In this document: piece by piece, positions 27,043-45,300 of the stretch | Numbering within the stretch: position 1 is the stretch's first letter | Layout: each line of letters starts with the position of its first letter | Assembly (NCBI GenBank): GCA_005799525.1 | Contig: SYGN01000062.1 | Location: 1-48,271, forward strand | Source of the DNA: Opitutaceae bacterium | GTDB taxonomy: Bacteria; Verrucomicrobiota; Verrucomicrobiia; Opitutales; Opitutaceae | Direction: 5' to 3' | Length of the DNA stretch: 48,271 bases | Program-made: the position numbers and the translations under genes | Notes under the pieces: generated by a model | Database searches by the model: none | What the model saw: only the letters and a program-made list of their open reading frames with translations | Told to the model about the DNA's origin: nothing

Positions 27043-28476
27043 CTATCGGCCAAATGCCCAGAGTTTCGTCGTCGTGCGCAGGTAAAGCCGCTCGCCCACG
27101 AGCGCCGGCGTCGCGAGGATGCGTTCACCGAAATCCGCCTGATGCAAAATCTCCGGCTTGTCGCCGCCCGCCTTCACAACCGTGAGTTTACCGAGGAGCG
27201 ATGCTAGGTAGATGCGGCCATCCGCTGCCACCGGCGAGGCGTAATAGCCTCCCAGCGCACCGGTCAGGCGTTCCTGCGTGTAATGCGGCTCGCCGGTCTG
27301 CGGGTCGAGCGACGAAATGAGCCCGCCGTCCCTCACGAAATAAATGCGCCCATCGTAGAAAAGCGGCGACGGCACGTAGGGTAATCCCTGCCGATATTTC
27401 CACGCCACTTGGGAGTCGGAGATATCGCCGGTGCCGCCTGGCGTCACGGCAATAAGCAGGTTCGCGGCGCGGGCGTTGCGGGCTTTCCGGATTTCCCAGT
27501 CCTCTTTCATATATTTACCGTCGCGATTCGCATCCACGCCGCGCCAGTAGTCGCGCCGTTCAATCGGGATTTCATCCGGCGTGACCTCGTCGTCGCCGTT
27601 CTTGTTGTAAGTCTTCAGAAATTGGTCCCACGGCGGTACAGCCGAGTCGGCAACGGCGTTCGACCAGCCGCCAAAAATCAGCCGATCGCCAGCAATCACG
27701 GGAGTCGTGCAAACCAGCCCGGTGATTCCTTCAACCACCCAACGCTCCACGCCCGTCCGCAGATCGTAGCCCTTCAGTCGCGCGGAGGCCCCGAGCACGA
27801 TTTCATCCACGCCGTTGTTTCGCCAATACGCGGGCGAACCGAAACTGCCGCCCGCCTCCGGCCGCGGAGTTTCCCACAGCAGGGCGCCGCTCGCGAGATC
27901 CAGCGCGAGCAGCGAGGAGTAGCGGTATTGATCGCGATTCAAAACAACCGTACGCCCCACGATAATCGGCGACGCGCCCGAGCCATACTGGCCGTAGGAT
28001 TCGGCCGCCGGCAGCGGACGCCTCCACAGTTCCTTGCCCTCGAAATCGTGGACCACGACCCCGAACGATCCGAAGTAGCTCACGACGCGCTGCCCGTCCG
28101 TCGCGGGCGTGGAGGCGGCCGGGCTGCCGTCAGAGCGATGAAACTCTTCCACGTGCTCCGGTGTGAACACCCGCGTCCAGCGCAACGTTCCCGTCGCACG
28201 CTCGTAGCAGCGCACCTCGAGGTTCGGCTCCGCGAAAGTCGTGACAAAAATCCGCTCGCCCCACACGCACGGCGACGAGGGTGACCACGGCATTTCTACG
28301 CTCCACACCACGCCTTCGGCGGGGCCAATCTTCGTCGGCGGCTTGGCGCCGGCCGCAAGGCCGGAACCATTGGCCCCGCGAAACTGCGGCCAGTGGGCTG
28401 ACGCGGCGTCCTGCGCGGAGAGCGAGGCGCAGCCAACTGCCAGCAACGAGGCGAACCTGAAGCGGCGGGTTTTCAT
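27043..28476 (-). CDS. Secreted PQQ-like propeller protein B, with paired EF-hand-like loops
   Basis: The 477-residue product has a signal peptide (residues 1-27, ending QDAASA) and the family signature HWPQFRGANGSG. Eight-bladed propeller repeats follow (RATGTLRWTRVF, LDLASGALLWETPR, SLDPQTGEPHYTQE). Near residues 287-325 there is an insert with two EF-hand-type loops, NKNGDDEVTPDE and DANRDGKYMKED, so calcium binding is likely. It ends RLYLRTTTKLWAFGR. It is the last gene of the leftward four-gene E-D-C-B propeller operon, 11 bases from C. Function unknown; probably binding or scaffolding, not a quinoprotein enzyme. Confidence 0.82.
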   Translation of the reverse strand: MKTRRFRFASLLAVGCASLSAQDAASAHWPQFRGANGSGLAAGAKPPTKIGPAEGVVWSVEMPWSPSSPCVWGERIFVTTFAEPNLEVRCYERATGTLRWTRVFTPEHVEEFHRSDGSPAASTPATDGQRVVSYFGSFGVVVHDFEGKELWRRPLPAAESYGQYGSGASPIIVGRTVVLNRDQYRYSSLLALDLASGALLWETPRPEAGGSFGSPAYWRNNGVDEIVLGASARLKGYDLRTGVERWVVEGITGLVCTTPVIAGDRLIFGGWSNAVADSAVPPWDQFLKTYNKNGDDEVTPDEIPIERRDYWRGVDANRDGKYMKEDWEIRKARNARAANLLIAVTPGGTGDISDSQVAWKYRQGLPYVPSPLFYDGRIYFVRDGGLISSLDPQTGEPHYTQERLTGALGGYYASPVAADGRIYLASLLGKLTVVKAGGDKPEILHQADFGERILATPALVGERLYLRTTTKLWAFGR

Positions 28477-28487
28477 CTGGGGGAAAT

Positions 28488-29729
28488 TTATCTGCGTCCG
28501 ATCCGGTAGAGATGCCCCGCCGTCCGGATGAAGAGCGCCCCATCCGCGACGGCATACGAGGCGAGTGCGCGCTCCTCCAGTTTGTTCGTCGCGATCTTCT
28601 CGAACGTCCGCGCCGCCTTCACGACCGTGCCGACGCCATCCTCGCTCAGGAAGAATATCTTGCCTTCGGCCACGATGGGCGACGCCGAGTAGTTGCCCTC
28701 GATCCGCTCTTGCCAGTGGACGGTTCCGGTCTTCGCGTCCCAGCAGGTCGCGATACCGCTGTCAGCGACGCCGTAGAGTTCGTCCCCCGCCACGACGACC
28801 GAGGGCGTGAGCGGCGCGCCCTTGGTCGTGCGCCACGCGACATGCGTGTCGGTCACGTCGCCCTCGCCGTCGGGCCGAATCGCGAGCAAATCGGCGCGGT
28901 TGAAACCGGTCGCGATAAACAACAACCCGTGCGCAAACACCGGCCGCGGCACCACCGAGTAGCCCTCGCCGTAGCGCACCCGCCAAATTTCGCGGCCATC
29001 GTTCGGGTCGAGCGCCCACACCGCACCGCTCCCCGGAGTGATGATCTGGATACGTCCATTCACGCTAATCACGAGCGGCGTGCAGAACGAAAAATACGAC
29101 TTCACCGTGATCCCGCGCGGCACTTTCCACGCGACCTCGCCGGTGGCTTTTTCGAGCGCGACAACAAAGGGATCCTTCGTGCCATCGGAGCTGAACACGA
29201 GCCGATCGCCCGCGAGCGCCGGCGAGCCGCCATTGCCGTGCAACGGATCGTAGCGGAGGGAGTGGTTCCGCCAGAGTATTTTCCCTGCCCGGTCCAGACA
29301 TGCGGTGCCGTGGTGGCCGAAATGCAGATAAATCCGATCACCCTCGACGATCGCGGTCGGGCTGGCGGGACTGTTTTTCGTGTGCACGGGCTTCACGCTC
29401 GCTTCGGTCGCCGAAAAAACTTCCGTTTCCCACAACGCCCGCCCGCTCGCCACGTCGAGCGCCAGCGCGCGCAGGGAAACTCCACCCGACGCATTCGTGA
29501 CTCCCGTCGTGAGAAAAACCTGTCCGCCACTAATCGCCGGCGACGACCAACCCGCGCCGGGCACGGGGACTTTCCATGCGACGTTTTTGGTCGCTGACCA
29601 CTCGGTCGGCAGTCCGATCGCGGTTGACGTCCCCTGTCCCGTGGGTCCGCGAAACTCGGGCCAGTCTTGACCCCTGAGCAGCGGACAGGCAGCCAATAAC
29701 AATGCGGCAAACAGTGAGCGTGGTCTCAT
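28488..29729 (-). CDS. Secreted PQQ-like propeller protein C
   Basis: The 413-residue product starts MRPRSLFAALLLAACPLLRG, a signal peptide with a possible lipobox-like Cys15. The signature DWPEFRGPTGQGTSTAIGLP follows, then blades such as LDVASGRALWETEVF, LEKATGEVAWKV, ALDPNDGREIWRVRYGEG and CWDAKTGTVHWQERIEGNY. It ends ALFIRTAGHLYRIGRR. The upstream ATG (30026) would add about 99 residues of non-propeller sequence, so the later start at 29729 is used. It is 32 bases from gene D and 11 from B, in one operon. No haem or PQQ-dehydrogenase motif is seen. Confidence 0.82.
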   Translation of the reverse strand: MRPRSLFAALLLAACPLLRGQDWPEFRGPTGQGTSTAIGLPTEWSATKNVAWKVPVPGAGWSSPAISGGQVFLTTGVTNASGGVSLRALALDVASGRALWETEVFSATEASVKPVHTKNSPASPTAIVEGDRIYLHFGHHGTACLDRAGKILWRNHSLRYDPLHGNGGSPALAGDRLVFSSDGTKDPFVVALEKATGEVAWKVPRGITVKSYFSFCTPLVISVNGRIQIITPGSGAVWALDPNDGREIWRVRYGEGYSVVPRPVFAHGLLFIATGFNRADLLAIRPDGEGDVTDTHVAWRTTKGAPLTPSVVVAGDELYGVADSGIATCWDAKTGTVHWQERIEGNYSASPIVAEGKIFFLSEDGVGTVVKAARTFEKIATNKLEERALASYAVADGALFIRTAGHLYRIGRR

Positions 29730-29761
29730 GAATGGATACAGCAGCAGATGATGCCGGGCCG

Positions 29762-31207
29762 TCACTTTCCCGCGACCAACGCGAAAAGTTGTTTTTGGCC
29801 AGTGATGTAAAGGATGCCGTTGGCGGCGACGGCGGTGCCGTGCTGGAGATCGGGGAGCTGGGTATTGGTCACGAGGAGTTTTTTCTCCCGGCCGACGGCG
29901 AACACAAATACAGCACCTTCGGAACTTTGAATGTAGACCTTGCCATCGGCGACGAGCGGCGAGCCCCAGATGTTGGATTTTACGTCGTGCGACCACAGTT
30001 TCTTCCCGCTGACCGCATCGAGGCACGAAAGATAGCCGGGCGTGTCCGCGGCGTAAACGAGGCCGTTATGCACGGCGGGCATCGAAATACTGTCGCTGAA
30101 ATCGAGTCCATCGAGCCGCCAAATCTCGGCGGTTTTTGTGACGTCGCCACGCTGCTTGGCGTCGAGGCAGCGGAGGGCACCCGCGCCGGATCCCGCCTCG
30201 GGTTCACCGATGGCGGCGTAGACTCGGTCACCGACGAAGACGGGCGCGGCAAGAAATTGAAACAGCGTCTCCGGTTCGCCCGAAGGGAGCGTTTTTTCGT
30301 GCGCCTTGCCGTTGAATTTCCACAGGAGTTTTCCGGTGGCTGGCGCGAAACTGTAGAGCCACCCGTCGCCGCCCGGGAAGGCAACTTGCGCCACGCCCTC
30401 GACGACGCCGTATCCAGGCGAGCCCCATTGGCCGGTCATGATCCGGGCTCCGGGTGAGTTGTCCTGCCACAGGATTTTCCCCGTCAGAGCATCGACCGCG
30501 AGGAAGCTCGGGGCGGCGGGGTTCTTGACCTTGCCGGTCTTATAGTCGGCGGAGGTGCCGGTGACGCTAAACACGCGTCCGTCCACCACGAGGGGCGACG
30601 ACGACGACGCTTGGTTCGGCATTACGCCGAGGGTGGCGCGCATATCAATCGACCAAATTTGTTTGCCGTCCCTCGCCGCGAGGCAGACGAGTTCTGCGCG
30701 GTTGCTCACATAATAGACATTCTCGCCGGATACACACGGGGTGGACGTGACGCCAATCGTGCCGTCGTCTTCGCTGGGGTTGCGGAGCTTTTCGTGGGTG
30801 ACCGCCCAAAGGAGTTTGCCGTCGCTCTCCGCAAAACACTTCATCACCCCGCGCTGTTCGGTATGATCCTTGGAGTCGTTGTCGGTGCCGATAAAGACGC
30901 GACCGCCACTAATTACGGGCGCGCAAAAAGTGACCTTACCGAGCGGAGCGACCCACTTGATATTCTTGGCCGGAGTTTTTCCTCCGAAACTCCACTCGGC
31001 GGGTAAACCGACTTCACGCGAGACCATATTGCGGTCCGGCCGACCGCCAAGCATGGGCCAATCATCGGCGCGGAGCGAGGACAACGTGAGCAGCGCAATC
31101 AGGGGTAGCCCGCCTCGTGAGAGGCGGGACGGAACGCTCTTGGTCAGCGAACAAATCCTTGCTCTCACGAGCAGGGCTACGAGTGCCAATTGCTCGATCG
31201 GTTTCAT
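29762..31207 (-). CDS. Secreted PQQ-like propeller protein D, signal peptide split by an in-frame repeat
   Basis: The 481-residue product reads MKPIEQLALVAL, then about 21 Arg/Ser-rich residues (LVRARICSLTKSVPSRLS...), then LPLIALLTLSSLRADDWP. The outer parts together make an ordinary signal peptide; the middle is coded by the palindromic element at 31105-31180. The propeller signature is DWPMLGGRPDRN, and blades include LAARDGKQIWSID, VDALTGKILWQDN, FAPATGKLLWKFNGK and LDAVSGKKLWSHD. The ATG overlaps the stop of gene E (ATGA). The insertion may weaken or abolish export; an internal start downstream of it is possible but lacks the positive N-region. Confidence 0.8.
   Translation of the reverse strand: MKPIEQLALVALLVRARICSLTKSVPSRLSRGGLPLIALLTLSSLRADDWPMLGGRPDRNMVSREVGLPAEWSFGGKTPAKNIKWVAPLGKVTFCAPVISGGRVFIGTDNDSKDHTEQRGVMKCFAESDGKLLWAVTHEKLRNPSEDDGTIGVTSTPCVSGENVYYVSNRAELVCLAARDGKQIWSIDMRATLGVMPNQASSSSPLVVDGRVFSVTGTSADYKTGKVKNPAAPSFLAVDALTGKILWQDNSPGARIMTGQWGSPGYGVVEGVAQVAFPGGDGWLYSFAPATGKLLWKFNGKAHEKTLPSGEPETLFQFLAAPVFVGDRVYAAIGEPEAGSGAGALRCLDAKQRGDVTKTAEIWRLDGLDFSDSISMPAVHNGLVYAADTPGYLSCLDAVSGKKLWSHDVKSNIWGSPLVADGKVYIQSSEGAVFVFAVGREKKLLVTNTQLPDLQHGTAVAANGILYITGQKQLFALVAGK
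31105..31180. repeat. REP doublet inserted in the signal-peptide codons of gene D
   Basis: GTAGCCCGCCTCGTGAGA (31105-31122) faces TCTCACGAGCAGGGCTAC (31163-31180); 16 of 18 positions pair as an inverted repeat. The GTAG/CTAC ends and GC-rich hairpin pair match BIME-like elements moved by RAYT transposases. It lies wholly inside codons of gene D and keeps its frame. The left half has a near copy at 26497-26521. Confidence 0.82.
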
Positions 31208-32466
31208 TTGCCGGCGATGCATACAAGGTGGGTAAACGTCTTCACGTAGATCCGTCCACCGTCGACACACGGGGTGCTGTGCGTGCCTTCGCCGAGGGAA
31301 CTGCGCCCGAGTTCTTTCAAGCTATCGCCGGTCGCCAGAACGATCATCTCGCCCTTGGTGCTCGCGCAGTAAATCTTTCCATCGATCAACACCGGCGAGC
31401 TAAAGAACTCGGCACGCGGCAGGCGCTCCGACCAGATTTCCTTGCCCGTCGCCGCCTCAATCGCGCTGGCGAACCCCGCGTCGCTGACCAGATACAGGCG
31501 TCCCTCGTGAAACAGCGGCGTCGGCACATAGGGCGTCGCCCGGCGGAGCGTGTAGGCGACGTGGGTCGCCCCGACATTGCCCTTACCGCCGAGCTTGATC
31601 GCCGAAAGGTAGTTGCCCGTGCCAGCGCTGGAGCCACAGCTGCCAATCGCGAGATCGCCGGCTACGATCGCAGAAGCCACCATCCGTTTGTCGAAAACCG
31701 GTGAATCCCAATTGAACGCGCCGGTGCGTGCATCGATACTGGAGACACCGTGCGACTGGCTCGTGAGCAGCAATTCGACCGTTCCGTCTGCGCGCTGATG
31801 CGTGATGGGCGTGCAGTAAGCAGCCGCAATGTTGGGGTTGAGACCGGACGCGCGCGGAGACTTCCACACCACCGCGCCCGTGCGCGCGTCGAGCGAGACG
31901 ACCGAACTCGCGCCGTCCTGATCGTTCGTCACGATCACGTTTCCTTCGTAAATCATCGGCGAGGCCCCGTGGCCGTGTTGCGCGACGAACGTCCCCAGAT
32001 CGCGACTCCAGAGCTCTTTGCCGGCGTGATCGTAGGCGCGCACCCAAAAATGATCGTTCGAAACAAAACAGGCGACGACACGCTCGGCGTCGACGACGGG
32101 CGAGGTATTGGCGTAGCCGGTGTTTTTATTGCCCAAGCGCGCCATCGGCAGCGGATAACTCTTTTGCCACAATTCCATCCCATCCGATTTGCGCACGCAA
32201 ATGATCGCGCGCTCGTTTCCGTTATCGAGGGCGGTCAACAAGAACAACCGGTCACCCCAAACGACCGGCTGCGAGTGGCTCGCGCCGGCGATCGGCACGC
32301 GCCAAGCAAAACCGTTTTCCGCCCAGCTAACCGGAAGGCCCTTGGCTGTGCTGATACCAGTGCCGTTCGGGCCGCGAAAGCGGGTCCACTCTTGGGCATC
32401 CGCTTGGACGACGAAGCCCGTGGTCGAGACCAAAATCAGAAGGGCGGCGTGGGGAGATAATTTCAT
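31204..32466 (-). CDS. Secreted PQQ-like propeller protein E
   Basis: The 420-residue product has a signal peptide (residues 1-24, VVQADAQ) and the signature EWTRFRGPNGTGISTAKGLP. Blades: VRKSDGMELWQKS, YDHAGKELWSRDLG, LDARTGAVVWKSPR, IDARTGAFNWDSP, IEAATGKEIWSERLPRAEFFSSPV. It ends RIYVKTFTHLVCIAGK. As the first gene of the leftward operon its upstream region (32467-32622) should hold a promoter shared divergently with gene F. Its stop overlaps the ATG of D by four bases. Confidence 0.85.
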   Translation of the reverse strand: MKLSPHAALLILVSTTGFVVQADAQEWTRFRGPNGTGISTAKGLPVSWAENGFAWRVPIAGASHSQPVVWGDRLFLLTALDNGNERAIICVRKSDGMELWQKSYPLPMARLGNKNTGYANTSPVVDAERVVACFVSNDHFWVRAYDHAGKELWSRDLGTFVAQHGHGASPMIYEGNVIVTNDQDGASSVVSLDARTGAVVWKSPRASGLNPNIAAAYCTPITHQRADGTVELLLTSQSHGVSSIDARTGAFNWDSPVFDKRMVASAIVAGDLAIGSCGSSAGTGNYLSAIKLGGKGNVGATHVAYTLRRATPYVPTPLFHEGRLYLVSDAGFASAIEAATGKEIWSERLPRAEFFSSPVLIDGKIYCASTKGEMIVLATGDSLKELGRSSLGEGTHSTPCVDGGRIYVKTFTHLVCIAGK

Positions 32467-32622
32467 GGGGTAATGGGGGAGGGCATTGTGATGGGTGAGG
32501 GCACCTGACGAAGCACACGAGACGGAGGATTCGCGGTCAAAGAGAATTCAGTCGCCAGCACCACGTTGCGAGCGCTTGCCGTAGCCATCCAAATCAACCA
32601 ACGCTTCTCTCACCCACTCCCG
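32467..32622. promoter_or_regulatory. Divergent intergenic region between propeller operons E-D-C-B and F-G
   Basis: This 156-base gap separates the two divergent starts. Any promoters for the propeller operons should lie here. I see no confident -35/-10 pair, no long palindrome and no sigma-54 GG-N10-GC box, so the site itself is inferred from gene layout only. Confidence 0.35.
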
Positions 32623-33864
32623 ATGAAAATTTATCCCGCGTTCATTGCGCTCTCGTTTATGCTCGGCTCATTGGTCGCTTCAGCCGCGACTACCGCCGAC
32701 TGGCCCGGCTGGCGCGGACCGACGGCCGACGGCCACGCAGCCGCCGGCCAAAACGTGCCGACGACCTGGAGCGAAACGGAAAATATCATCTGGCGCGCGC
32801 CGATTCGCGGGCGGGGGCACAGCTCGCCGACCGTCGTCGGCAGTCGCGTTTATGTCGCGACGGCCGACCCCGTCACGCAAGAGCAGCTCGTACTCTGCCT
32901 CGACCGTACCACGGGCAAGTCCGTCTGGGAAACCGTCGTCCATCGCGGCCCGCTCGAATCCGGCAACCACAAGGTCTCCTCCGCCGCCTCGTCGACCGTC
33001 GCTTGGGACGGCGAGCGGCTCCACATCATGTTTCTTCACGCCAAGGCGATTTACGCGACGGCGCTCGACGTTTCGGGAAAAATACTCTGGCAGACGCGCG
33101 TCGATGACTACGCGGTACACCAGGGCTTTGGGGCCTCGCCCGTCATCCACGAGTCGGTCGTGCTCATCGCCTCCGATCACCGCGGTGGCGGCAAGGTTGC
33201 CGGCCTCGACCGGCGCACGGGAAAAATTCTCTGGGAGCACGCCCGCCCCAAGGTCGCGAACTACGCGACGCCCGCAGTGCTGAAGGTCGCCGGCCGCACG
33301 CACCTCGTGCTCGGCGGCTGCAAGCTCCTCGTGAGCCTCGATCCGCTAACAGGTAAAAAACACTGGGAGCTCGCGGGCTCAACCGAGGAGACCGTGGTGA
33401 CCGCGACGACTGATGGCACCCGCGTCTTTGTAAGCGGCGGCTACCCGAGGCTGCACACGATGGCCGTCGAGGCCGACGGCTCCGGCAAGATCGCCTGGGA
33501 AAACAACACCAAGGTTTATGTGCCCTCGATGCTCGTGCGCGCCGGCCACGTCTTCGCCGTCCTCGACGCCGGCCACGCCGTTTGCTGGAACGCCGCGACC
33601 GGCGAGGAACTCTGGCGCGAGAAAGTGGACAAGGATTTCTTCAGCTCGCCCGTGATGCTCGGCTCGCGCATCTACGTAACGAGCCTGCGCGGTGCGACGG
33701 CGGTGTTCGAGGCGACGCCGCAGGCGTTCAAACGCCTCGCGGAAAACCAGCTCGGCGACGAGTCGTTTGCGTCCCCCGCGATCTGCGGTGACCGGATCTA
33801 CCTGCGCGGGGTCAAAAAGGCGGAAGTGCGGCAAGAGTATCTCTGGTGCATCGGCGAACAATGA
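32623..33864 (+). CDS. Secreted PQQ-like propeller protein F
   Basis: The 413-residue product starts MKIYPAFIALSFMLGSLVASA, a signal peptide, then DWPGWRGPTADGHAAAGQNV. Blades: LDRTTGKSVWETVVHRG, LDVSGKILWQTRVDD, LDRRTGKILWEHARPK, LDPLTGKKHWELAGS, WNAATGEELWREKVDKDFFSSPV. It ends EVRQEYLWCIGEQ. A start 19 codons upstream is open but would precede the signal peptide. Its stop codon overlaps the ATG of gene G (ATGA at 33861), a coupled pair. Confidence 0.85.
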   Translation: MKIYPAFIALSFMLGSLVASAATTADWPGWRGPTADGHAAAGQNVPTTWSETENIIWRAPIRGRGHSSPTVVGSRVYVATADPVTQEQLVLCLDRTTGKSVWETVVHRGPLESGNHKVSSAASSTVAWDGERLHIMFLHAKAIYATALDVSGKILWQTRVDDYAVHQGFGASPVIHESVVLIASDHRGGGKVAGLDRRTGKILWEHARPKVANYATPAVLKVAGRTHLVLGGCKLLVSLDPLTGKKHWELAGSTEETVVTATTDGTRVFVSGGYPRLHTMAVEADGSGKIAWENNTKVYVPSMLVRAGHVFAVLDAGHAVCWNAATGEELWREKVDKDFFSSPVMLGSRIYVTSLRGATAVFEATPQAFKRLAENQLGDESFASPAICGDRIYLRGVKKAEVRQEYLWCIGEQ

Positions 33865-35168
33865 ACGCGCGGTGGCGCCTGTTTATTTTTTGGGCGTGCT
33901 TCGCGGGCGATGTTTCCTTGTTCGCGTCGTCGGCAGCGCTCATCGCCTCACCCGAGGCAGGTTGGCCCCAATTTCGCGGCCCGCGGCGCGATGGGATCAG
34001 TGACGAGCGCGGGCTGCTTGCGACCTGGCCCGCAGGCGGGCCGAAGTTGCTGTGGTCGGCCAAGGGTGCCGGGCGCGGTTTTTCTTCGACGATTATCGGC
34101 GGGGGTCGCCTCTACGTGACGGGGGATTTCGACGCCGAGCTGCGGGTGCTCGCCTTCGATCTCAGCGGGAAGCTCTTGTGGTCGGTGCGCCACGGCGACG
34201 CGTGGCTCAATCAATATCAAGGTGCCCGTACGTCCGTCACCTACCGCCACGGGCTCCTCTACCTCCAAAACGCCCACGGTCGCATCACCTGCCTCCAAGC
34301 CGCGAACGGCCAAGAAGTGTGGTCCATGGATTTACTGAAGAGCTTTGGCTCGGAAAATATCACTTGGGGATTCAGCGAATGCTTACTCGTGGACGAACGC
34401 GCCATGTATGCGACGGCCGGTGGACGCGACGCCATGATCGTCGCGCTCGAACCCCGCACGGGAGCGGTCGTCTGGAAAATTCCCCAGCTCGATCCGGCGG
34501 CGGACAAACTCGAAAGCGCCTCGTATGCGGCGCCGATTCTGGTGCGATTCGCCAACCGACGACTTCTGATCGGTTGCACCCAACGCCAACTTTATTGCGC
34601 TGACGCCGACAGCGGCGTCCTGCAATGGACCCGGCCGCGCCCCACGACGTATTCGGTACTGGCGAGTTCGCCGGTCCTGGTCGGCGAATCAGTGTTCATG
34701 GCCGCGCCGCACGGCTCTCCCGGCCAACTCTATCGATTGCTCGCGCCGACTGGGGCGGGTCAGCCGGTCGGGGCAGCCGACGCGTGGACAACCGCGCTCG
34801 ACACCTGCCAAGGCGGCGTGGTTCACGTCGATGGGCGGCTTTATGGCTCGACCTATCCGCGGCGCGGCAGCTGGCAGGCCATCGATGCGCGCAACGGTGA
34901 ACTCCTCTACGAGACCACCGAATTCCTCAAGGGCTGCGTCCTGTATGCCGATGGCCGGCTCTACACCCTCGCCGAGGACGGCTGGATGCTGCTGCTGGAG
35001 CCGACGGACAACGCATTCGCGGTGCGCGGCCGCTTCCGTTTGGCCGAGGCCCGCGACCGCAACGCGTGGGCCCATCCCGTGATCTCCGACGGACGCCTCT
35101 ACCTGCGCTACCTCGATACGATTTCGTGTTACGATATCCGCACCGCTCACTCCCCGCGGAAATCATAG
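33861..35168 (+). CDS. Secreted PQQ-like propeller protein G
   Basis: The 435-residue product starts MNARWRLFIFWACFAGDVSLFASSAAL (signal peptide), then GWPQFRGPRRDGISDERGLL. Blades: FDLSGKLLWSVRHGDAW, LQAANGQEVWSMDLL, LEPRTGAVVWKIPQ, YCADADSGVLQWTRPR, IDARNGELLYETTEFLKG. It is less regular than its neighbours but ends with the typical RLYLRYLDTISCYDI strand. The 3' end overlaps the 3' end of gene H by 22 bases, tail to tail. The N-terminal extension upstream of the ATG at 33861 is not needed. Confidence 0.83.
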   Translation: MNARWRLFIFWACFAGDVSLFASSAALIASPEAGWPQFRGPRRDGISDERGLLATWPAGGPKLLWSAKGAGRGFSSTIIGGGRLYVTGDFDAELRVLAFDLSGKLLWSVRHGDAWLNQYQGARTSVTYRHGLLYLQNAHGRITCLQAANGQEVWSMDLLKSFGSENITWGFSECLLVDERAMYATAGGRDAMIVALEPRTGAVVWKIPQLDPAADKLESASYAAPILVRFANRRLLIGCTQRQLYCADADSGVLQWTRPRPTTYSVLASSPVLVGESVFMAAPHGSPGQLYRLLAPTGAGQPVGAADAWTTALDTCQGGVVHVDGRLYGSTYPRRGSWQAIDARNGELLYETTEFLKGCVLYADGRLYTLAEDGWMLLLEPTDNAFAVRGRFRLAEARDRNAWAHPVISDGRLYLRYLDTISCYDIRTAHSPRKS

Positions 35169-36562: not shown

Positions 36563-36672
36563 AGGGCGACCGGCGAAAGCGTGCGGGGTGTCGGTCTTGC
36601 CGCAACTGAAAGGTTTGCAGCGAGCAACTCCGCGCACTTTCCTGCGCGCCCCAACGTCCCACCCTCCCACTC

Positions 36673-38113
36673 ATGACTCAAGCTGCCGCCCTCTTCTCCC
36701 GCTTGCCCGCTCTGCTGTCGCGCACGCGGTTCTACTATGGTTGGGTCGTGGTCGGCCTCGCGGCGCTCGCGATGGTGGGGACGCTGCCGGGTCGGACGCA
36801 AGGGTTGGGCCTGATCGCGGAGTCGTTGTTAAAAAGATCTGCAGCTCGACCGCGTGACGTTCGCCGAAGTAAAGATCCCCGGAGCAAGCTCCGGGGCATT
36901 TGATCCAGCCACCCATCATGTCCACCCTACCCTTGCCAATCCTGGTAGCCACGAGCGTGAGCGAGTGGAGGCGAGACGCGCTCGACTCGCTCACGCTCGT
37001 CGCTACACCAACCAAGCCGAAGCGAGCTTCGGGGTATCGGACCCATTGCGAATGAATCTGTGGGCGACGCTGCTCGGGTCGTTATGCTGCATCGGCGTCG
37101 GTCGCCTAGAGGATCAGATCGGCACTCGGATCGTGCTGACCGCGATTGCGGCGATGTTGGGGCTGGTCGTGTTGGCGATGCGTGTGACGACCGGGGTGGC
37201 GGCTATGTTTGGCCTACTTGTGTTATCGCGCGGCCTCGGTCAAAGCACGCTTTCAGTGGTGAGTGTCACGATGGTCGGCCAGTGGTTTCGCGGCCGGTTG
37301 AATCTGGCGATGGGGATTTTTTCCGTGGCCTTGAGTCTGGGCTTCATGACGGCGTTTCCGATCATCGGCGCGATCGTCGTCAGCGAAGGCTGGCGGACAG
37401 CGTGGGCTCTGATCGGCTGGTGTCTGCTGCCGGGGCTGGCGCTGATCGCGTGGTGGCTGGCCCGACGCGGACCGGAAGAATGTGGCTTGGCGTGGGAGCA
37501 CAACGCCAAGCCGGCCGCGGCCGAACCGGCGGTGAGCATGACGTGGGCCGAGGCCCTGTGGCACGCCGGCGTTCTGGGTGTTCACCCACGCAAGTTCTAC
37601 CTACAACCTCGTGGCTCCAGGCGTGGGCTTGTTCAATGAGTCAATCCTGACCGAGCGCGGTTTCGCGGCGGGGACCTATCACCGCAGTCTCGTGATCGTA
37701 GCCCTCCTATCACTCGTCGGAAATTTCCTCGGCGGCTGGCTCGCTGTGCGCTGGAGCATGAATCGCCTCATGGCGCTCACGATGGCGCTACTCGGCATGG
37801 CGCTGTGCGCACTGCCTTCGCTCAAGACTCTCGCGCAAGTTCACGCGTTCTCGGTCGTGATGGGCCTAACGGGCGGATTCGCGGTCGTGATTTTCTTCAG
37901 TGTCTGGGCGCAGGTTTTTGGTCGCGCCCATTTGGGCCGCATCGTCGGAACGCCACAGATAATGACTGTGCTGGCCTCGACGGTAAGCCGTTGCTCCTCG
38001 CGCAGTGTCACGCCGCCACCGGATCGTATAAGGCCGTATTCTACTCTTTGGCCGCTGTTGTTGCACTCCTCGCACTCGCGGCCTTGTGGGTACTGCTACC
38101 GGCGGCTAGGTAG
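36673..38113 (+). pseudogene. MFS transporter gene, broken by frameshifts and a palindromic insertion
   Basis: Reading frames joined in order give an MFS transporter of about 420 residues: RTRFYYGWVVVGLAALAMVG, then LQLDRVTFAEV ... NLWATLLGSLCCIGVGRLEDQIG (here split by the insertion at 36870-37045), RGLGQSTLSVVSVTMVGQWF, FWVFTHASSTYNLVAPGVGLFN, and GSYKAVFYSLAAVVALLALA. Lesions: one extra A in AAAAA at about 36833, one extra base near 37575, and a frame change near 37985. An ATG and a stop remain, but no single frame covers the protein. Each frameshift alone could be a sequencing error; three of them with an insertion point to a real pseudogene. Confidence 0.85.
36870..37045. repeat. Composite REP-like element inside the MFS pseudogene
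   Basis: Three hairpins lie in a row: CCCCGGAGC-AA-GCTCCGGGG (36877-36896), a long GTAGC...GCTAC inverted repeat (36945-37006, arms of 22 bases with one mismatch, CACGAGCGTGAGCGAGT and partner), and CCGAAGC-GA-GCTTCGG (37017-37032). The flanks read MFS codons (..DRVTFAEV before, NLWATLLG after), and the frame runs through the insert without a stop. Exact ends are uncertain by a few bases, and a target duplication is not evident. Confidence 0.8.
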
Positions 38114-38160
38114 GCCGGGAGGTCGCTCGCTTTTTTCATGGGCGGACGAAGCGAGCCTAC
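38110..38160. repeat. REP-like palindrome with GTAGG/CCTAC ends
   Basis: GTAGGCCGGGAGGTCGCTCGC at the left (38110-38130) faces GCGAGCCTAC at the right (38151-38160), with an interrupted inverted repeat. It sits exactly between the MFS pseudogene stop and the stop of the halogenase-like gene, so both converging genes end at it. Confidence 0.7.
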
Positions 38161-39498
38161 TCAAGTCGCAGGCACTGCTCCAAGGGCAACCAACCCAAGA
38201 TTCCCTTCGAGACCGCGTTGGGCTTGTTTCACTACGCTGGCGGCGACCAACGGCTCACCGTAAGGCAAATCGTCGGGCAATGGAACGAGCTCCCGGAATT
38301 GGCTCCAGAGGCGCGAGAAATCTTTGTTCACGTCGCCCGAAAGACAGTCGGTGATGTCGGCGGCGGCTTCGGGATGGCGTTCGACGACTTGCTTGAACGA
38401 GAAGCCCGGTTGATAAAACGCGTAAACGAGCTTGCGCATGTTTTCGACGCCGGTGCGGATCGTGACGCCATAGGTCGCGAAACGCTCCGGGGACAGATCT
38501 CCGGCGACCAAGCCGGCGTGCACGGTCTCGCCAACCAGCACGCCACTCTTCAACGCCAGCATGACGCCGCTGCTGAAAACGGGATCGAGAAACGCGAGTG
38601 CATCACCGACGAGCGCGAGACCGGGCGACGCGCAATAGCGCGAGTGCCGCGAATACTCGCTTGTGACCCAGTACTCGCCCGTGCACCGGCCGACAGAGAG
38701 ACGGTCCTTGATCCACAGGTTTTCGCCAATCTCACGTTGGAAAATTGCCTCCGGATCTTTGACGCCGTCGCGCGTGAGATATTTGCCCTCGGCCACGACA
38801 CCGACGCTGACCATGCCACCGTGCTGCGGGATGTGCCAGAACCAGCCCTTGTGCGGGATGAAGGCGACGGTGGTTTCGCCCTCATCGATACCCTCGGCTC
38901 TCTTCGAATCCTGATAGTAGGTCCAAACCGCAATCTTGTTGAGAAAAGGATCGCGCTCCCTCCAGCCGTTTGCCTGGGAGGCGAAGGCTTCTTTGCCAGT
39001 GCAGTCGAGCGTGATGGGGGCGTGAAACACGTGGGCGCATCCAGCCGCATCGGTTGCCGCCACTCCGACGACGCGGTCGCCCTCCCACAGAAGGCGCGTG
39101 ACTTTGATTTCCTCGCGGACGTCGGCGCCCTTGTGGCGGGCGTTGTCGAGCATCATTTGGTCGAACTCTGAACGCAGCACCTGCCACGATTGCGCGATGG
39201 TGTCCTTGTCATAACGAGTGGAAAAATAGAAGGGCTGCGAGCGCCCGCCTTCCTGCTGCACGAAGCGCACGCTGTATTTTTTCACGAAGTGCGATTGGCG
39301 CATCTGCGGGATCATACCAAGCCGCTCGAGCGGTTGAAACGTGAACGGAATCAGCGACTCACCAATATGGTAGCGGGGAAATTTTTCCCGCTCGAGGATC
39401 AGCACGCGATGGCCGTATTCGCCGAGGATGGCACCGGTCGAAGCACCCGCGGGACCGCCGCCGATAATAATAGCATCGTAGTTTGGGGAGACGTGCAT
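38161..39498 (-). CDS. FAD-dependent halogenase-like flavoprotein
   Basis: The 445-residue product starts MHVSPNYDAIIIGGGPAGAS, with the GxGxxG FAD motif. It then has the segment HIGESLIPFTFQPLERLG (usual in halogenases), a Lys at 74 (FVKKYSVRF) in the position of the catalytic Lys of tryptophan halogenases, and GWFWHIP (about residue 217), which matches the family's WxWxIP motif. The FAD domain closes with LVGDALAFLDPVFSSGVMLALK. Flavin-dependent halogenases add Cl or Br to aromatic substrates. Related enzymes in this superfamily instead reduce or hydroxylate, so halogenase activity is not certain. It lies 55 bases downstream of a small membrane protein gene. Confidence 0.8.
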   Translation of the reverse strand: MHVSPNYDAIIIGGGPAGASTGAILGEYGHRVLILEREKFPRYHIGESLIPFTFQPLERLGMIPQMRQSHFVKKYSVRFVQQEGGRSQPFYFSTRYDKDTIAQSWQVLRSEFDQMMLDNARHKGADVREEIKVTRLLWEGDRVVGVAATDAAGCAHVFHAPITLDCTGKEAFASQANGWRERDPFLNKIAVWTYYQDSKRAEGIDEGETTVAFIPHKGWFWHIPQHGGMVSVGVVAEGKYLTRDGVKDPEAIFQREIGENLWIKDRLSVGRCTGEYWVTSEYSRHSRYCASPGLALVGDALAFLDPVFSSGVMLALKSGVLVGETVHAGLVAGDLSPERFATYGVTIRTGVENMRKLVYAFYQPGFSFKQVVERHPEAAADITDCLSGDVNKDFSRLWSQFRELVPLPDDLPYGEPLVAASVVKQAQRGLEGNLGLVALGAVPAT

Positions 39499-39553
39499 AG
39501 AGAAAAAAGGGATGTGAGGAGTGCGAAGAGAGAAAAAGAATGCTAGAACAAAT

Positions 39554-40180: not shown

Positions 40181-40293
40181 CGAGAATCACGGGAACATAC
40201 CCACAAGACGCCGAGCTCAAGGAAAAAGGTGCGCGGCGCAAAGCTTGCGTCGCATTTTTCCGTCACCCACAACGCACGACCCACCGCGCCACC

Positions 40294-41613
40294 ATGACCC
40301 TATCGCTCACTCTGTTCCGACCCTTCGTTTTCGCCGCGCTCTTGGTGGGCGGCACGCCTCCGCTCTCGGCCGTCGATTGGCCGCAGTGGCGCGGGCCGCA
40401 GCGCGATGGCGTCTGGCGTGAGACCGGCATCGTCGAGAAATTTTCCAGCCCCCAGCTGCAACCGGTCTGGACCGCCACGGTCGGCCCCGGCTACAGCGGT
40501 CCGACGGTCGCCGGTGATCGCGTTTACCTCACGGATCGCGTCAACGAACCCGCGCCCCAAGAGCGTGTACGCTGCTTCGATCGCTCCACCGGTAAACCGC
40601 TCTGGACGCACACCTACCCCTGCGTGTATCGCGACATCGACTACGCACTCGGTCCCCGGGCGGCGGTCACGGTCGTCGACGGCCGGGCCTTCGCATACGG
40701 TGCGATGGGGCACGCGCACGCTCTCGACGCGGCTTCCGGCCAGGTCCTTTGGGCACGCGATCTCGCGACCGAATACGGAGTGAAGCTCAATGTCTGGGCC
40801 GTCTCCGGCGCGCCACTCGTCGTGGGCGATCTCGTGATTTTCCAAGTCGGCGGGCCGCCCGATGCGTGCGTCGTCGCCCTCGACGTGAAGACCGGCCGCG
40901 AACGCTGGCGCGCGCTCGACGGCCAGTCGTCCTACTCGGCACCGCGACTGGTTCGGCTCGGCGAGCGCGAGGTCGTGCTAGTCTGGACTGGGTTTTGGAT
41001 CGCCGCCCTCGACCCCGCGACCGGCAAGGTGTGGTGGCAGGAGCCTTACAAACCGGTCAACATGATCCTCAACGTCGGCGATCCCGTGCTCGACGAGTCG
41101 GGGACGAAGCTGTTTTTCTCCGCTTTTTACGACGGTGCGCGGCTCTACGAACTGCCGCGTGACACCTCACCCCCGACCCTGCTCTGGCAGCGCAAGGGCG
41201 TGAACGAGCGTAAGACGGACGCGCTGCACAGCATCATAATGACACCCTTCGTGCGGGGTGGCTACGTCTACGGCATCGATAGCTACGGCGAGATGCGCTG
41301 CCTCAAGCTCACAAACGGCGACCGCGTGTGGGCAGACACGACGCTGCTCGACAACGGCCGCTGGGCCACCGCGCATTTCGTGCAACACGGCGACCGCACC
41401 TGGATCACCACCGAAAAAGGCGAGATCGTGATCGCGAAGCTCACGCCGGCCGGCTTCGAGCGGATCAGCAGCGCGCACTTCATCACGCCCGAGACGCCGT
41501 TGCGCAACCGCGCGCACCCGATCGCTTGGTCGCATCCAGCCTACGCGCATCGGAGCCTGTTTGCGCGCAACGATACCCAGCTCGTGTGCGTCTCACTCGC
41601 CGCGTCCCCGTAA
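40294..41613 (+). CDS. Secreted PQQ-like propeller protein I
   Basis: The 439-residue product starts MTLSLTLFRPFVFAALLVG (signal peptide), then DWPQWRGPQRDGVWRETGIV. Blades: FDRSTGKPLWTHTYP, LDAASGQVLWARDLAT, LDVKTGRERWRALDGQS, LDPATGKVWWQEPYKP, LKLTNGDRVWADTTLLD. It ends ARNDTQLVCVSLAASP. The open frame reaches further upstream, but the signal peptide starts at 40294. It is divergent from the small membrane protein and halogenase genes, and convergent to the antiporter. Confidence 0.83.
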   Translation: MTLSLTLFRPFVFAALLVGGTPPLSAVDWPQWRGPQRDGVWRETGIVEKFSSPQLQPVWTATVGPGYSGPTVAGDRVYLTDRVNEPAPQERVRCFDRSTGKPLWTHTYPCVYRDIDYALGPRAAVTVVDGRAFAYGAMGHAHALDAASGQVLWARDLATEYGVKLNVWAVSGAPLVVGDLVIFQVGGPPDACVVALDVKTGRERWRALDGQSSYSAPRLVRLGEREVVLVWTGFWIAALDPATGKVWWQEPYKPVNMILNVGDPVLDESGTKLFFSAFYDGARLYELPRDTSPPTLLWQRKGVNERKTDALHSIIMTPFVRGGYVYGIDSYGEMRCLKLTNGDRVWADTTLLDNGRWATAHFVQHGDRTWITTEKGEIVIAKLTPAGFERISSAHFITPETPLRNRAHPIAWSHPAYAHRSLFARNDTQLVCVSLAASP

Positions 41614-41812
41614 TCTCCGAAACCAGACCCTTGTCGGCTGGCTCCCGCGAGGCCGGGCGCGCTCAAGGATGAGTTCGAAGATCTCATCTGAATCAAAGCA
41701 CCATGTATAACGACGCTACTCTTTCTTGTAGTATCATCTCAGGCGATCCTCCGACCGTTCCTGAGCTTGCCCCCGTCGCGGCGCGCGTCAAAGCGGGCGG
41801 CGGATGCCAATT

Positions 41813-43057
41813 CTACGCCTCCGTCGCCGGCCGATGCCGGCCGACGAGCAACTCAAACAGCGGTGACGCCATCAACGTCGTCACGACCGCCATGATCACG
41901 AGCGTGGCAAACAGCGCGGGCGTGATGATTCCGCGCTGCAGGCCGATATTAATAATGATAAGTTCCATCAGCCCGCGCGCATTCATCAACGTGCCGATGC
42001 CGAGCGACTCACGATTCGACAATCCCGTCGCGCGCGCCGCGAGCCAGCAAGCCACGCCCTTGCCCCCGATCGCCGCGACCAAAATGAGGCCCGTCATGCC
42101 CCAGAGGTAGGCGGAATCGAGGAGGCCGATCTGGGTGTTGAGGCCCGAGTAGGTGAAGAACAGCGGCAGCAGCAGCGCGACCGTGAGCGGTTGGATGCGC
42201 GCGATCAGCTCCTTCGTCACGAGGCCGCGCGGCATCGCAATCCCCATGATAAATGCGCCAAATACTGCATGCAGCCCGATCCAGTCGGTGAAACCAGCAG
42301 CCAGAGCCATCAACGCGAGGCACGCGACGAATTCGCCGTCCGACAATTGCCCGCGTGCCTCGATCCCGCGCGCCCACCGCGCCAGCAGCGGCCGAACCAC
42401 GAGCAGCGCGACCGCGACGAAGCCGACGCCGCCGCCGATGTTCCAGGCCGCGCCCGCAAAATTCCCATCGAAACTCGCGAGTACGATGGCGAGCAAACCC
42501 CACGCCGCCGCGTCGTTGATCGCGCCTGCGCCGATGGCCACAGTACCCATGGTCGTTCCGGTGAGGCGCTTGAAATGGATAATGCGCGCGAGCATGGGAA
42601 ACGCCGTGATGCACATCGAAGCCCCGAGAAAAAGCATCGCCTCGACGAGCGAGGTCTTGGCGGGAAAGAGCGACGTGTGCCCGTGAAAATACCAACCCAG
42701 CGCCGCGCCAAGCACGAACGGCGCCGCCATCCCCGCGATCGACACCGCCACGGCGCTCCGCAGTTGGCGCCGCACGATGTCCATCCGAAACTCCAGCCCC
42801 ACGACAAACATGTAGGCCGCGAGCCCGAGCTGCGAAACGGGAAACAGCACCCGCAACGTCTCCGGAGGAAACAGTTTCGCCGAGACCGCCGGGAGAAACA
42901 GGCCCAGGAGCGACGGCCCGAGCAGCACGCCAGCGAGCATCTCTGAGACCACCTGCGGTTGGCCCGCCCGCCGCCCGACGAGGCCGACGATTTGGCACAC
43001 GATCAAGATCGCCCCGATCTGGAAAAAGAAGTGAACGGCGAGCTGGAGATTGGTCAT
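41813..43057 (-). CDS. CPA2-type cation/proton antiporter, membrane domain only
   Basis: The 414-residue product has about 12 transmembrane segments of the monovalent cation:proton antiporter-2 family (KefB/NapA type). Motifs: SEMLAGVLLGPSLLG near the N-terminus, VVGLEFRM, LGASMCITAFPMLARII, AINDAAAWGLLAIVLASFDG (ND motif in the ion site), HAVFGAFIMGIAMPRGLV, and GTLMNARGLMELIIINIGL. There is no RCK/TrkA-N domain, so it works without the nucleotide-gated part that KefB has. Likely exchange is Na+ or K+ for H+. It does not belong to the propeller family but is sited among them. Confidence 0.88.
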   Translation of the reverse strand: MTNLQLAVHFFFQIGAILIVCQIVGLVGRRAGQPQVVSEMLAGVLLGPSLLGLFLPAVSAKLFPPETLRVLFPVSQLGLAAYMFVVGLEFRMDIVRRQLRSAVAVSIAGMAAPFVLGAALGWYFHGHTSLFPAKTSLVEAMLFLGASMCITAFPMLARIIHFKRLTGTTMGTVAIGAGAINDAAAWGLLAIVLASFDGNFAGAAWNIGGGVGFVAVALLVVRPLLARWARGIEARGQLSDGEFVACLALMALAAGFTDWIGLHAVFGAFIMGIAMPRGLVTKELIARIQPLTVALLLPLFFTYSGLNTQIGLLDSAYLWGMTGLILVAAIGGKGVACWLAARATGLSNRESLGIGTLMNARGLMELIIINIGLQRGIITPALFATLVIMAVVTTLMASPLFELLVGRHRPATEA

Positions 43058-43134
43058 GGGCTGTGAGCGTAGTTCGCGGGAGACGCACCGAAGGTCAAGA
43101 CGTTGCCCGGCGTGTTTCCCACCGGCCGCCCGAG

Positions 43135-43215
43135 GTAGGAGCCCGCTTGCGGGCGATTGTGAGCGCGACCGCCCCCGGTCGCAAGTTACAGGCCGACCCC
43201 GGGGCGGTCGCGCTC
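43135..43215. repeat. REP-like doublet with 15-bp perfect inverted repeat
   Basis: GTAGGAGCCCGCTTGCGGGC (43135-43154) has a small hairpin (GCCCGC-TT-GCGGGC). Then GAGCGCGACCGCCCC (43161-43175) faces GGGGCGGTCGCGCTC (43201-43215), a perfect 15-bp stem with a 25-base loop. It lies in the gap between the antiporter and gene J. Confidence 0.8.
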
Positions 43216-43277
43216 CCGCAAACCATTGCCGGCTAGCAGACTCCTCCTTCCGGCGTTTCCGCCGGTTCAGACTGCCG

Positions 43278-44681
43278 CTACTTCGTCACGCAATAAAGGT
43301 GCGTGCCCGTGCGGATGAACAGCTCGCCGTCCACTGCGGCCGGCGTGCAGAGCGTGTAGCTGCCGTCGAGTGAGTTTTTCCCGAGGAGCTTGTAGGCCGG
43401 GCCGGCTTGCACGACGGCGATCTCCCCCGACTCGCTCGTGATGTAGATTTTTCCGTCAGCCAGAATCGGCGAGGCACTGATGGTGCCGAGGCCGGTGGCC
43501 TCCGGGCCGTAGATGCGCTCGCCCGTCTTGGCGTTGACGCACGTGATCGAGCCGCGGTCGTCGGCCATGTAGAGCCGCTCGCCGTCGCTCGCGGGCGTCG
43601 GCACATCGGGCGAGCCCCGCTCAGTCCACTTCCACGCCAAGTGACTCGTCGTAATGTCGCCGGTGCCGCCCGCCTTGAAGGCGATGAAGGGCTTCACCCG
43701 CGTCGGCGCGAAGATCATGCCGTCACGGACGAGCGGCGACGCAATCACGCGGAACGTTTTGCTCTTCTCCGGATTCAGCCCGCCGCCACGCCACAGCTCC
43801 TTGCCCGTCTCGAAGTCGTGGCCCGTCACATAATCGCTACCGCCGACGACGATTTGTTTCTTGCCGTTCACCACGAGCAGCGCGGGCGTCGAGTAGGCAT
43901 CGGGGGACTCATGCTCCGCATCGGTCGGGCGCTCGGCGTACCAGAGTTTTTTTCCGTCAGCGGCGTTCAGCGCGAAGAGGTAGCAGGGGTCGTCCGTGTA
44001 GAGTCCGTGCAGCATCTGAAACACGAGCTTGCCATCGACCAGCAACGGCGACGAACCGTAGCCAAACTGAATGCCGATCTTCCCAAAGTTCTTCGGTATA
44101 TCGAAGATCCACTTCTGGTTTCCCGCGAAGTCGAAGCACGCGACCATGCCGTTCCCCGACACCACCCAGACGTGCTTGCCGTCAGTCACCGGCGAAGGCG
44201 ACGACATGTTGTGCTTCTGTTTGATTTCGTTGCCGCGGTCATGCTGGCGGCGCCACAGCTCCTTGCCCGTCGCGCGGTCGAGGCAGAGCAGGAGCAACTC
44301 CTGCCCGCCGGGCCCCTTGACCCCGCCGGGAGCGGGCCGCTTTTTTTTGCCCGGCGGCAACGGCTCGGCGACGGCCACCGGTGCTGCAACGACTTCCTCC
44401 GAAGGCGAATTGAGAAAAATCCGGTCGCCCCAAATCGTCGGCGAGGAGCCGCTCCACGCGGGCGTCGCAATCTTCCATTTGATATTTTGCGTCGCGCTCC
44501 ACGTCTCGGGGAGATTCTTCGCCGTCGTGGTCGTGCCATCGCCATTGGGCCCGCGCCAGCCGGGCCAGTTGGCGGCGGCGGTGAGATTGGCGGTGGCGGC
44601 ACCGGCCAAGATCAGCGCGACACCGACGGCCTTGCGGGAAAGACGATTATTTAGGTTTGAAGCGGAGGGGGCGAGGTTCAT
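43278..44681 (-). CDS. Secreted PQQ-like propeller protein J
   Basis: The 467-residue product starts MNLAPSASNLNNRLSRKAVGVALILAGAATA (signal peptide), then NWPGWRGPNGDGTTTTAKNLP. A charged loop (GKKKRPAPGGVKGPGG, about residue 120) is inserted in an early blade. Blades: LDRATGKELWRRQHD, LNAADGKKLWYAERPTDAE, HDFETGKELWRGGGL, VNAKTGERIYGPEATG. It ends IRTGTHLYCVTK. The open frame extends upstream by 24 codons, but those belong to the tail of the decayed paralogue at 44740-45300. That close paralogue makes J the likely product of a tandem duplication. Confidence 0.85.
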   Translation of the reverse strand: MNLAPSASNLNNRLSRKAVGVALILAGAATANLTAAANWPGWRGPNGDGTTTTAKNLPETWSATQNIKWKIATPAWSGSSPTIWGDRIFLNSPSEEVVAAPVAVAEPLPPGKKKRPAPGGVKGPGGQELLLLCLDRATGKELWRRQHDRGNEIKQKHNMSSPSPVTDGKHVWVVSGNGMVACFDFAGNQKWIFDIPKNFGKIGIQFGYGSSPLLVDGKLVFQMLHGLYTDDPCYLFALNAADGKKLWYAERPTDAEHESPDAYSTPALLVVNGKKQIVVGGSDYVTGHDFETGKELWRGGGLNPEKSKTFRVIASPLVRDGMIFAPTRVKPFIAFKAGGTGDITTSHLAWKWTERGSPDVPTPASDGERLYMADDRGSITCVNAKTGERIYGPEATGLGTISASPILADGKIYITSESGEIAVVQAGPAYKLLGKNSLDGSYTLCTPAAVDGELFIRTGTHLYCVTK

Positions 44682-44739
44682 GGGGCGAGGCGTTGCGAAA
44701 CGTTTTACTGCAGCGAATTTTGAAGAGAAAAGACGGCGA

Positions 44740-45300
44740 CGAGTCGAGAGCACATCGGCGATGCAGAGCAGTTTCGCGTAGGCGACGTAGATTTTCCCGT
44801 CGGCGAGAACCGGCGATGTCTAGGTGCGGCCAATCCCCGTTTCCATCGGACCATAAGTTACCACGCCGGTCTTGGCATCGAGGCAGGTGATCGCACCTTG
44901 GTCGCTCACCATGTAGAAACGTGGCCCGTCGCTCATCGGCGTCGGCACGTCGGGCGCGTTGCTCCGCTCGGTCCAGATCCACCGAGCTGGCTCGTCGAAG
45001 TGTCGCCGCTGCAGCCAGCACGGAACTCCAGCAGCGGCACCTGCCGCGTCGGCGCAAAAATCATTCCGTCGCGCACCGTTGGCGAAGCGACGCCCCGGAA
45101 ATCCCCGGCGTTGCGCGGATTGAGCCGGCCCGCGCGCCACATTTCCGCGCCCGTCGCCGCGTCGTAGCCGGTTAGGTCGTTGCCGCCGAGGACGACGAGT
45201 TGTTTTTCCCCGGCGATCATCGCCACAGCGGGCGTCGTGCAGGAGTCGGGCGATTCGCGAAGGGCGTCGGTCGCTCGACGCGCCAAGCTACGGCATCATG
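44740..45300 (-). pseudogene. Decayed tandem copy of propeller gene J
   Basis: Minus-strand frames can be joined to give the C-terminal half of a J paralogue. TDALRESPDSCTTPAVAMIAG corresponds to TDAEHESPDAYSTPALLVVNG in J, then NDLTGYDAATGAEMWRAGRL, FRGVASPTVRDGMIFAPTRQV, DVPTPMSDGPRFYMVSDQGA, TCLDAKTGVVTYGPMETGIG, and SPVLADGKIYVAYAKLL. Frame changes are needed near 45280, 45010 and 44990, and a stop (TAG) lies at about 44820. The N-terminal half is not found in the 200 bases upstream. It is therefore a 5'-truncated, frameshifted relic. Confidence 0.82.

Follow-up and report, generated by a model that had tools for sequence, protein, structure and literature searches.

Why a bacterium should keep nine genes for pyrroloquinoline quinone (PQQ)-like propellers next to each other is the question raised by the Opitutaceae bacterium contig SYGN01000062.1 (assembly GCA_005799525.1). 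This contig, C340 in our numbering, was analyzed over a stretch of 48,271 nucleotides (the window) and belongs to an assembly of 4.71 Mb in 343 contigs that is 83.75% complete. An earlier annotation made from the letters alone (the sequence-only reading) had described nine intact exported propellers, and indeed the nine reading frames, B to J, contained zero internal stops, their products all passed the curated cut-off of the PF13360 (PQQ_2) profile (69.6 to 119.6 bits; cut-off, 27.6 bits), and Sec-type signal peptides were apparent by eye at the N-termini. Taken together, the results presented below indicate that these genes very probably form an island, kept in a genus, of dissimilar propellers of old descent that use no cofactor and are apparently exported.

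The genes E (31204-32466; 420 amino acids, 88.7 bits with PF13360), D (29762-31207; 481 amino acids, 118.5 bits), C (28488-29729; 413 amino acids, 102.6 bits) and B (27043-28476; 477 amino acids with an EF-hand-like insert, 69.6 bits) run leftward on the minus strand in that order; D and E overlap by 4 bases, and the two remaining junctions are gaps of 32 and 11 bases. Across a gap of 156 bases from E, the F gene (32623-33864; 413 amino acids, 113.5 bits) is transcribed divergently on the plus strand and overlaps by 4 bases the G gene (33861-35168, plus strand; 435 amino acids, 82.6 bits), which in turn is convergent with H (35147-36562, minus strand; 471 amino acids, 109.5 bits) and overlaps it by 22 bases. 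I (40294-41613, plus strand; 439 amino acids, 115.1 bits) and J (43278-44681, minus strand; 467 amino acids, 119.6 bits) complete the set. These coordinates bear out the leftward group of four and the divergent rightward pair described previously, but the "several" ATGA overlaps amount to two, D/E and F/G. A decayed copy had also been proposed, and two minus-strand frames within 44784-45286 did match J (62% identity over 66 amino acids and 54% over 101 amino acids). The WPxWRGPxxDG-like signature said to follow the signal peptide is present but variable (WPMLGGRPDRN in D and WTRFRGPNGTG in E), and in H it lies about 50 residues from the start, away from the signal peptide. W-docking-like motifs were present in the propellers. 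Simple pattern searches revealed no twin-arginine motif in the nine proteins and a lipobox in C alone, which was absent from the C counterpart of the G006 genome.

The relationships among the nine proteins were analyzed in a tree of 71 rows under the LG+C20 model, which left out near-duplicate loci, fragments and the rows of the genomes G007 and G008 and included rows from four control genomes (G002, G030, G133 and G204) searched with PF13360. No two of the nine proteins were sisters, nine label changes were needed, the starred branches forced these nine changes, and none of 200 bootstrap trees gave a single change; shuffled labels were equally scattered (mean of 8.6 changes). The nearest non-orthologue of C was a gene of its own genome on contig C309, the sister of I was an own gene on C172, and J grouped with an own gene on C143. 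D grouped with an own gene on C109 and with G133 genes, G with an own gene on C99 and with genes of G030 and G133, and F with a G116 gene. E grouped with seven outside relatives, and the record titles in its clade were Planctomycetota, Verrucomicrobiales, Verrucomicrobiaceae and "uncultured bacterium". In this careful tree B stood with no rows other than its G005 counterparts, although a FastTree run without near-duplicate loci and fragments had put it by longer external propellers, and several outside rows were flagged by the program as long-branched. Because the outside sample came from the searches with B and E and from the four control genomes, closer outside kin of the other members may be missing. 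Since pairwise identity among the nine is as low as 22-33% and no sister pairs were found, the island is a gathering of old lineages rather than a local family, and the term "paralogues" used by the sequence-only reading applies to its members in a deep sense only.

Nine propellers within 17.6 kb do not reflect random placement, because the other PF13360 matches in the genome were spread over 14 other contigs, apart from one more gene of the window (13963-16011) that encodes a separate 682-amino acid propeller and adjoins a histidine kinase gene. The grouping had been regarded as unusual; it is non-random but not unique. The PF13360 searches of the control genomes revealed, in G030, matches in five genes over a span of 12.1 kb, in G133, at least four genes in about 11 kb, 24 mostly scattered matches in G204, where two or three genes are perhaps together on contig C20, and six matches on three contigs in G002. 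The G030 and G133 clusters mix lineages in the 71-row tree, some of them being those of C, D and G, which indicates that dissimilar propellers have been gathered more than once. The largest islands seen were those of this genus, the smaller mixed clusters occurring in another family of the phylum. In the G133 cluster, a membrane protein gene and a ferredoxin-like gene were recognized by eye between propellers (locus L059, 4984-6776), and some propellers may thus sit in redox modules. All eight loci fetched with E from outside the genus (stretches of 3 to 20 kb) contained one propeller each; seven of them (L018-L024) fell in the E clade and one (L025) outside it, and the neighbours of seven of the eight appeared unrelated by eye. 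A phage search with E gave no match, and, among the papers listed by searches of an open-licence library, no title or beginning of an abstract described such a propeller cluster.

By the sequence-only reading, homologues lying as scattered singles in related genomes would have pointed to a local duplication burst without system meaning; within the genus, the cluster was found to be conserved. When E was searched over 19 genomes (its own, eight other members of the genus and ten from outside it), the island was syntenic in six of the eight other genus members (G001, G003, G005, G006, G007 and G008), with E orthologues 78-97% identical, and an E orthologue was not found in G002 (no match) or G004 (one weak match, 3.6e-5). 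The ten relatives outside the genus also lacked an E orthologue: eight gave no match, G011 two weak matches, and G013 19 matches at 33% identity or less, which, among the matches listed, were either on different contigs or separated by more than 5 kb. The same island is present in metagenome assemblies recorded as Opitutus sp. GAS368, Opitutae bacterium or uncultured Opitutae bacterium, and the sample codes of these records suggest lakes as their source. B matches at 1e-28 were present in 12 of 194 genomes of the phylum, the own genome included.

Within the six island relatives, D, E and F were always present (F cut by the contig end in G005), and G was present in five, the G005 contig ending first and the G008 gene being split by a stop. 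C was present in all six, at a different place within the island in G006 and G007 (70-72% identity). Complete B genes were present in G003 and G008 and two copies in G005, whereas B was broken in G001 and reduced to a remnant in G006 and G007. H was 95-98% identical in G001, G003 and G008 and had a 46-47% identical counterpart in G006 and G007. J had orthologues in G006, G007 and G008, and in the latter a J-like remnant (45% over 53 amino acids; locus L010) adjoins it. Of I, a remnant was present in G008; the islands of G006 and G007 lack this gene, and in G001, G003 and G005 its place lies beyond the contig end. Because members such as I and B were lost or duplicated between species, the island is not an obligate nine-part machine. 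The ratio of nonsynonymous to synonymous substitution rates (dN/dS), computed between each source gene and its orthologues at 60% identity or more, was 0.06-0.30 in 42 of 44 non-independent comparisons, the other two (0.38 and 0.50) being short fragments, and shows purifying selection on the eight genes with orthologues (all but I). The F proteins of the source genome and G003 were only 67-70% identical to those of G001, G006, G007 and G008, which were 85-96% identical among themselves; D and G, unlike F, follow the species pattern. From these identities, F, and E in part, appears to be subject to local allele replacement.

What the propellers do was approached through AlphaFold2 models of B (predicted local distance difference test score (pLDDT) 81.3, predicted template modelling score (pTM) 0.79) and E (pLDDT 80.9, pTM 0.84). 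We counted eight blades in the E model, in which an N-terminal strand closes the ring. In each blade, the seven residues that precede the innermost strand were taken as the central funnel; the strands were set on the E model, that of blade 2 by eye, and carried to the other proteins by alignment. Invariant residues were then counted among orthologues at 60% identity or more with alignments longer than 330 amino acids (eight tests, uncorrected p values). Funnel positions were invariant in 47 of 55 cases in B compared with 210 of 388 elsewhere in the protein (p = 3.6e-6), in 51 of 56 compared with 187 of 329 in C (p = 1.5e-7), and in 52 of 56 compared with 242 of 333 in E (p = 4e-4), and the signal of these three proteins survived dropping the last two, structural, residues. 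The description of the set as differently diverged binding or scaffold propellers is consistent with the funnels of B, C and E, which are kept within lineages and differ between them, but not clearly with those of F, G, H and J. We tentatively favour, at slightly short of even chances, the reading that the island proteins are exported, work without a cofactor and serve as ligand-binding or scaffold propellers whose funnels differ. Each propeller would be soluble, located in the periplasm or the extracellular space, and would bind a ligand or act as a scaffold through its central funnel; the funnel residues would be kept within each lineage and, for B, C and E at least, would vary from one lineage to another. 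Because genes were lost, duplicated and replaced singly between species, the island would offer a choice of alternative pockets and would not encode a single complex of nine parts.

B carries in addition an insert of residues 283-336 (27469-27630, minus strand), recognized by alignment and in the AlphaFold2 model, that comprises a pair of helix-loop-helix units, the loops of which resemble Dx[DN]xDG. The insert was present in four full B rows (one from G003, two from G005 and one from G008) and partially in the G001 fragment, and in the B model its helices span residues 283-290, 305-312 and 324-336 with pLDDT values of 52-81 per block. The tandem B copies of G005 (locus L013, 4530-7652), 67-68% identical to the source B, both have a canonical first EF-hand loop. 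In the calcium blades of integrin, PilY1 and rhamnogalacturonan lyase, Dx[DN]xDG motifs are described at the tip of a propeller blade (PMC3123361). Calcium probably stabilizes or switches B by way of this EF-hand-like insert.

The propeller genes are interspersed with others. After H, the order is a broken MFS transporter gene (36673-38109, plus strand), a gene for a FAD-dependent oxidoreductase of Trp_halogenase-like type (38161-39498, minus strand, start approximate; PF04820, 90.4 bits), I, a sodium/hydrogen exchanger gene (41813-43057, minus strand; PF00999, 190.2 bits) and J. MFS and FAD oxidoreductase genes accompany the propellers in G001, G006, G007 and G008, and the exchanger in G006, G007 and G008. 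The MFS gene has no single open frame across its span in the source genome and has open frames in G001, G006, G007 and G008, the G008 gene scoring 99.3 bits with MFS_1. It contains a 183-base insert with an internal palindrome (36868-37050) that is absent from this place in G001, G003 and G008 and is probably a small mobile repeat, because contig C43 carries a full copy at 99% identity and partial matches are numerous. A transposase-like gene with DDE_3 and helix-turn-helix domains (46846-47922) lies at the edge of the region.

Several observations weigh against a binding or scaffold function. Funnel conservation was unclear in F (p = 0.47), J (p = 0.2), G (p = 0.075) and H (p = 0.11), the H orthologues being too alike for the test and I having no orthologue for it, and the D funnel was marginal (p = 0.047, and 0.19 when trimmed). 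The funnel positions rest on the E model, with blade 2 set by eye, and on alignment transfer, and inner propeller strands are conserved for structural reasons too. As for the insert of B, the best Pfam EF-hand_1 match, that of a G005 copy, had an E value of 1.4e-4 and 21.6 bits (cut-off, 25.4 bits), and no EF-hand match was detected in the source B at an E value of 0.01. The recurring neighbours (MFS, FAD oxidoreductase and exchanger) point to no one pathway. The surroundings of the scattered relatives, which by eye lie in carbohydrate-type loci, gave no clear indication either. The genome contains 128 sulfatase matches at E values of 1e-10 or better, none of them on the window contig, and the bacterium is perhaps a sulfated-polysaccharide specialist. 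In a proximity count that used 122 of these matches (broken genes were counted without their second pieces, and upper contig ends were not taken into account), 6 of 15 relatives lay near sulfatase or Gfo/Idh/MocA genes (about 4 expected, p = 0.18), 3 of 15 near sulfatases (p = 0.44) and 3 of 15 near Gfo genes (p = 0.23). Because the genome is so rich in sulfatases, this count is within chance, and therefore no carbohydrate role is claimed.

The main rival to ligand-binding or scaffold propellers, less likely in our judgment yet serious, is that some or all of the proteins are enzymes that need no cofactor and, like tetrathionate hydrolase, have the PQQ-like propeller as their scaffold, the central funnel housing the active site. 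Tetrathionate hydrolase and BamB came first in Foldseek searches with both the B and the E models, and a PDB profile search with the E family and three paralogues returned tetrathionate hydrolase, BamB and a designed propeller. In agreement with an enzymatic role, the Acidithiobacillus ferrooxidans tetrathionate hydrolase is described as needing no PQQ (PMC10859504), and H164, R261 and Y313 of E were invariant in all seven rows of the E family that were compared, of which two belong to the genus and five do not. Nevertheless, the resemblance to tetrathionate hydrolase, whose catalytic residue is Asp325, is at the level of the fold (13-17% identity), and no substrate-linked neighbour recurs.

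A different alternative concerns the arrangement and is compatible with the other readings: separately working propellers may have gathered neutrally in a region that tolerates insertions. The coming and going of single members between species, the mixed functions of the neighbours and the E-clade relatives standing alone elsewhere beside unrelated genes are what such a process would leave. However, the gene order and the divergent E/F pair are kept while E/F identity falls to 69-88%, and mixed gathering has also occurred in another family of the phylum. We regard neutral gathering as unlikely.

At the opposite end stands a dedicated multi-propeller system, in which unlike lineages would be recruited repeatedly to one locus, both in this genus and in a second family of the phylum, because their products act together. 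These would be a set of exported receptors that differ in their funnels, with one member gated by calcium, and would supply a TonB-linked uptake route. We consider this proposal rather doubtful. In G006, the run continues with further propellers and a gene for a TonB-dependent receptor lies between propeller genes (L005, 17145-19244), contiguous with the island. A similar receptor-propeller module is located on another contig of the source genome, C109, apart from the island (L060, 7124-9226), and, by eye, on contig C735 of G007. For the favoured binding or scaffold reading as well, the G006 receptor gene hints at a connection with TonB-dependent uptake.

Outer-membrane assembly helpers, i.e. 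several specialized BamB-like proteins, are a still less probable explanation. BamB was the other best fold match, and PMC11302035 reports that an E. coli bamB mutant is complemented by Gluconobacter GOX1969, a protein for which a PQQ dehydrogenase function had formerly been predicted. In contrast, none of the nine proteins passed the TIGR03300 (BamB equivalog) cut-off, the best score being 72.4 bits against 285.2 bits, and the 682-amino acid propeller at 13963-16011 scored 180 bits, above all nine. The lipobox of C, not kept in the G006 counterpart, and the same-genus genomes G002 and G004, which lack an E orthologue, also argue against such helpers. BamB proper was rejected on the TIGR03300 scores together with the occurrence of the lipobox pattern in C alone.

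The presence of PQQ-dependent dehydrogenases using imported PQQ is very improbable, notwithstanding the family resemblance and a PQQ-probe study that enriched BamB from cells (PMC13088180). None of the nine proteins reached the cut-off of TIGR03075 (PQQ-dependent dehydrogenase; best score of 48.4 bits against 480.05 bits) or of TIGR04528 (Acido-empty-quinoprotein group A; 62.4 bits against 650 bits), and neither a CxxCH motif nor a CC pair was present in any of them, which confirms the earlier statement that the set lacks haem c sites and dehydrogenase residues. A vicinal Cys pair above the PQQ is often present in PQQ-dependent dehydrogenases, and some PQQ enzymes are without a Cys pair or CxxCH. 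PqqC was not detected in the seven island genomes (five at least 90% complete, two below), with the built-in control silent, and its profile passed the cut-off in 4 of 145 genomes of the phylum; no PqqE match was over the cut-off in the own genome. The absence of PQQ synthesis is compatible with imported PQQ, and PQQ enzymes were rejected on the TIGR03075 scores, the lack of CC and CxxCH and of PqqC, and the lack of PqqE over its cut-off. Finally, a local duplication burst without system meaning is scarcely credible. The tandem B copies of G005 and the decayed J-like copy show that local duplication happens, but the lack of sister pairs in the 71-row tree, the 22-33% identity and the synteny across the genus speak against it as the origin of the nine.

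This genome is rich in PQQ-like propellers that do not resemble PQQ enzymes; such propellers also occur across the Verrucomicrobiota and Planctomycetota loci seen, and few relatives have a tested function. Nine lineages in one conserved island offer a compact set for testing function, ligands and co-expression together, and the question shifts from why there are so many copies to why unlike copies are brought together.

In comparison with known systems, the blade parts of the island proteins align weakly with PQQ-dependent dehydrogenases of the methanol/ethanol family (TIGR03075), from which they differ in scoring below the cut-off, in having no Cys pair and in occurring in genomes without PqqC. 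The likeness of B to calcium blades consists in Dx[DN]xDG calcium motifs attached to a propeller, but in the latter the motif stands at the blade tip, whereas in B a two-motif helix-loop-helix insert stands between strands. E. coli BamB (YfgL) shares the fold, with a template modelling score of up to 0.80 by target length, but it is a lipoprotein bound to BamA (PMC11302035), and the island proteins have no kept lipoprotein anchor; they also differ from the BamB equivalog in being far below its cut-off, in lacking a kept lipobox and in standing nine at one locus. With tetrathionate hydrolase (PDB 6l8a and 7cqy), the top fold match of the B and E models, they share the eight-bladed PQQ-like propeller, a likeness at the fold level seen for two of the nine proteins at 13-17% identity. 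With the PQQ_2/BamB-like propellers of PF13360, they share a profile cut-off reached by all nine, W-docking-like motifs and, in the E model, the eight blades.

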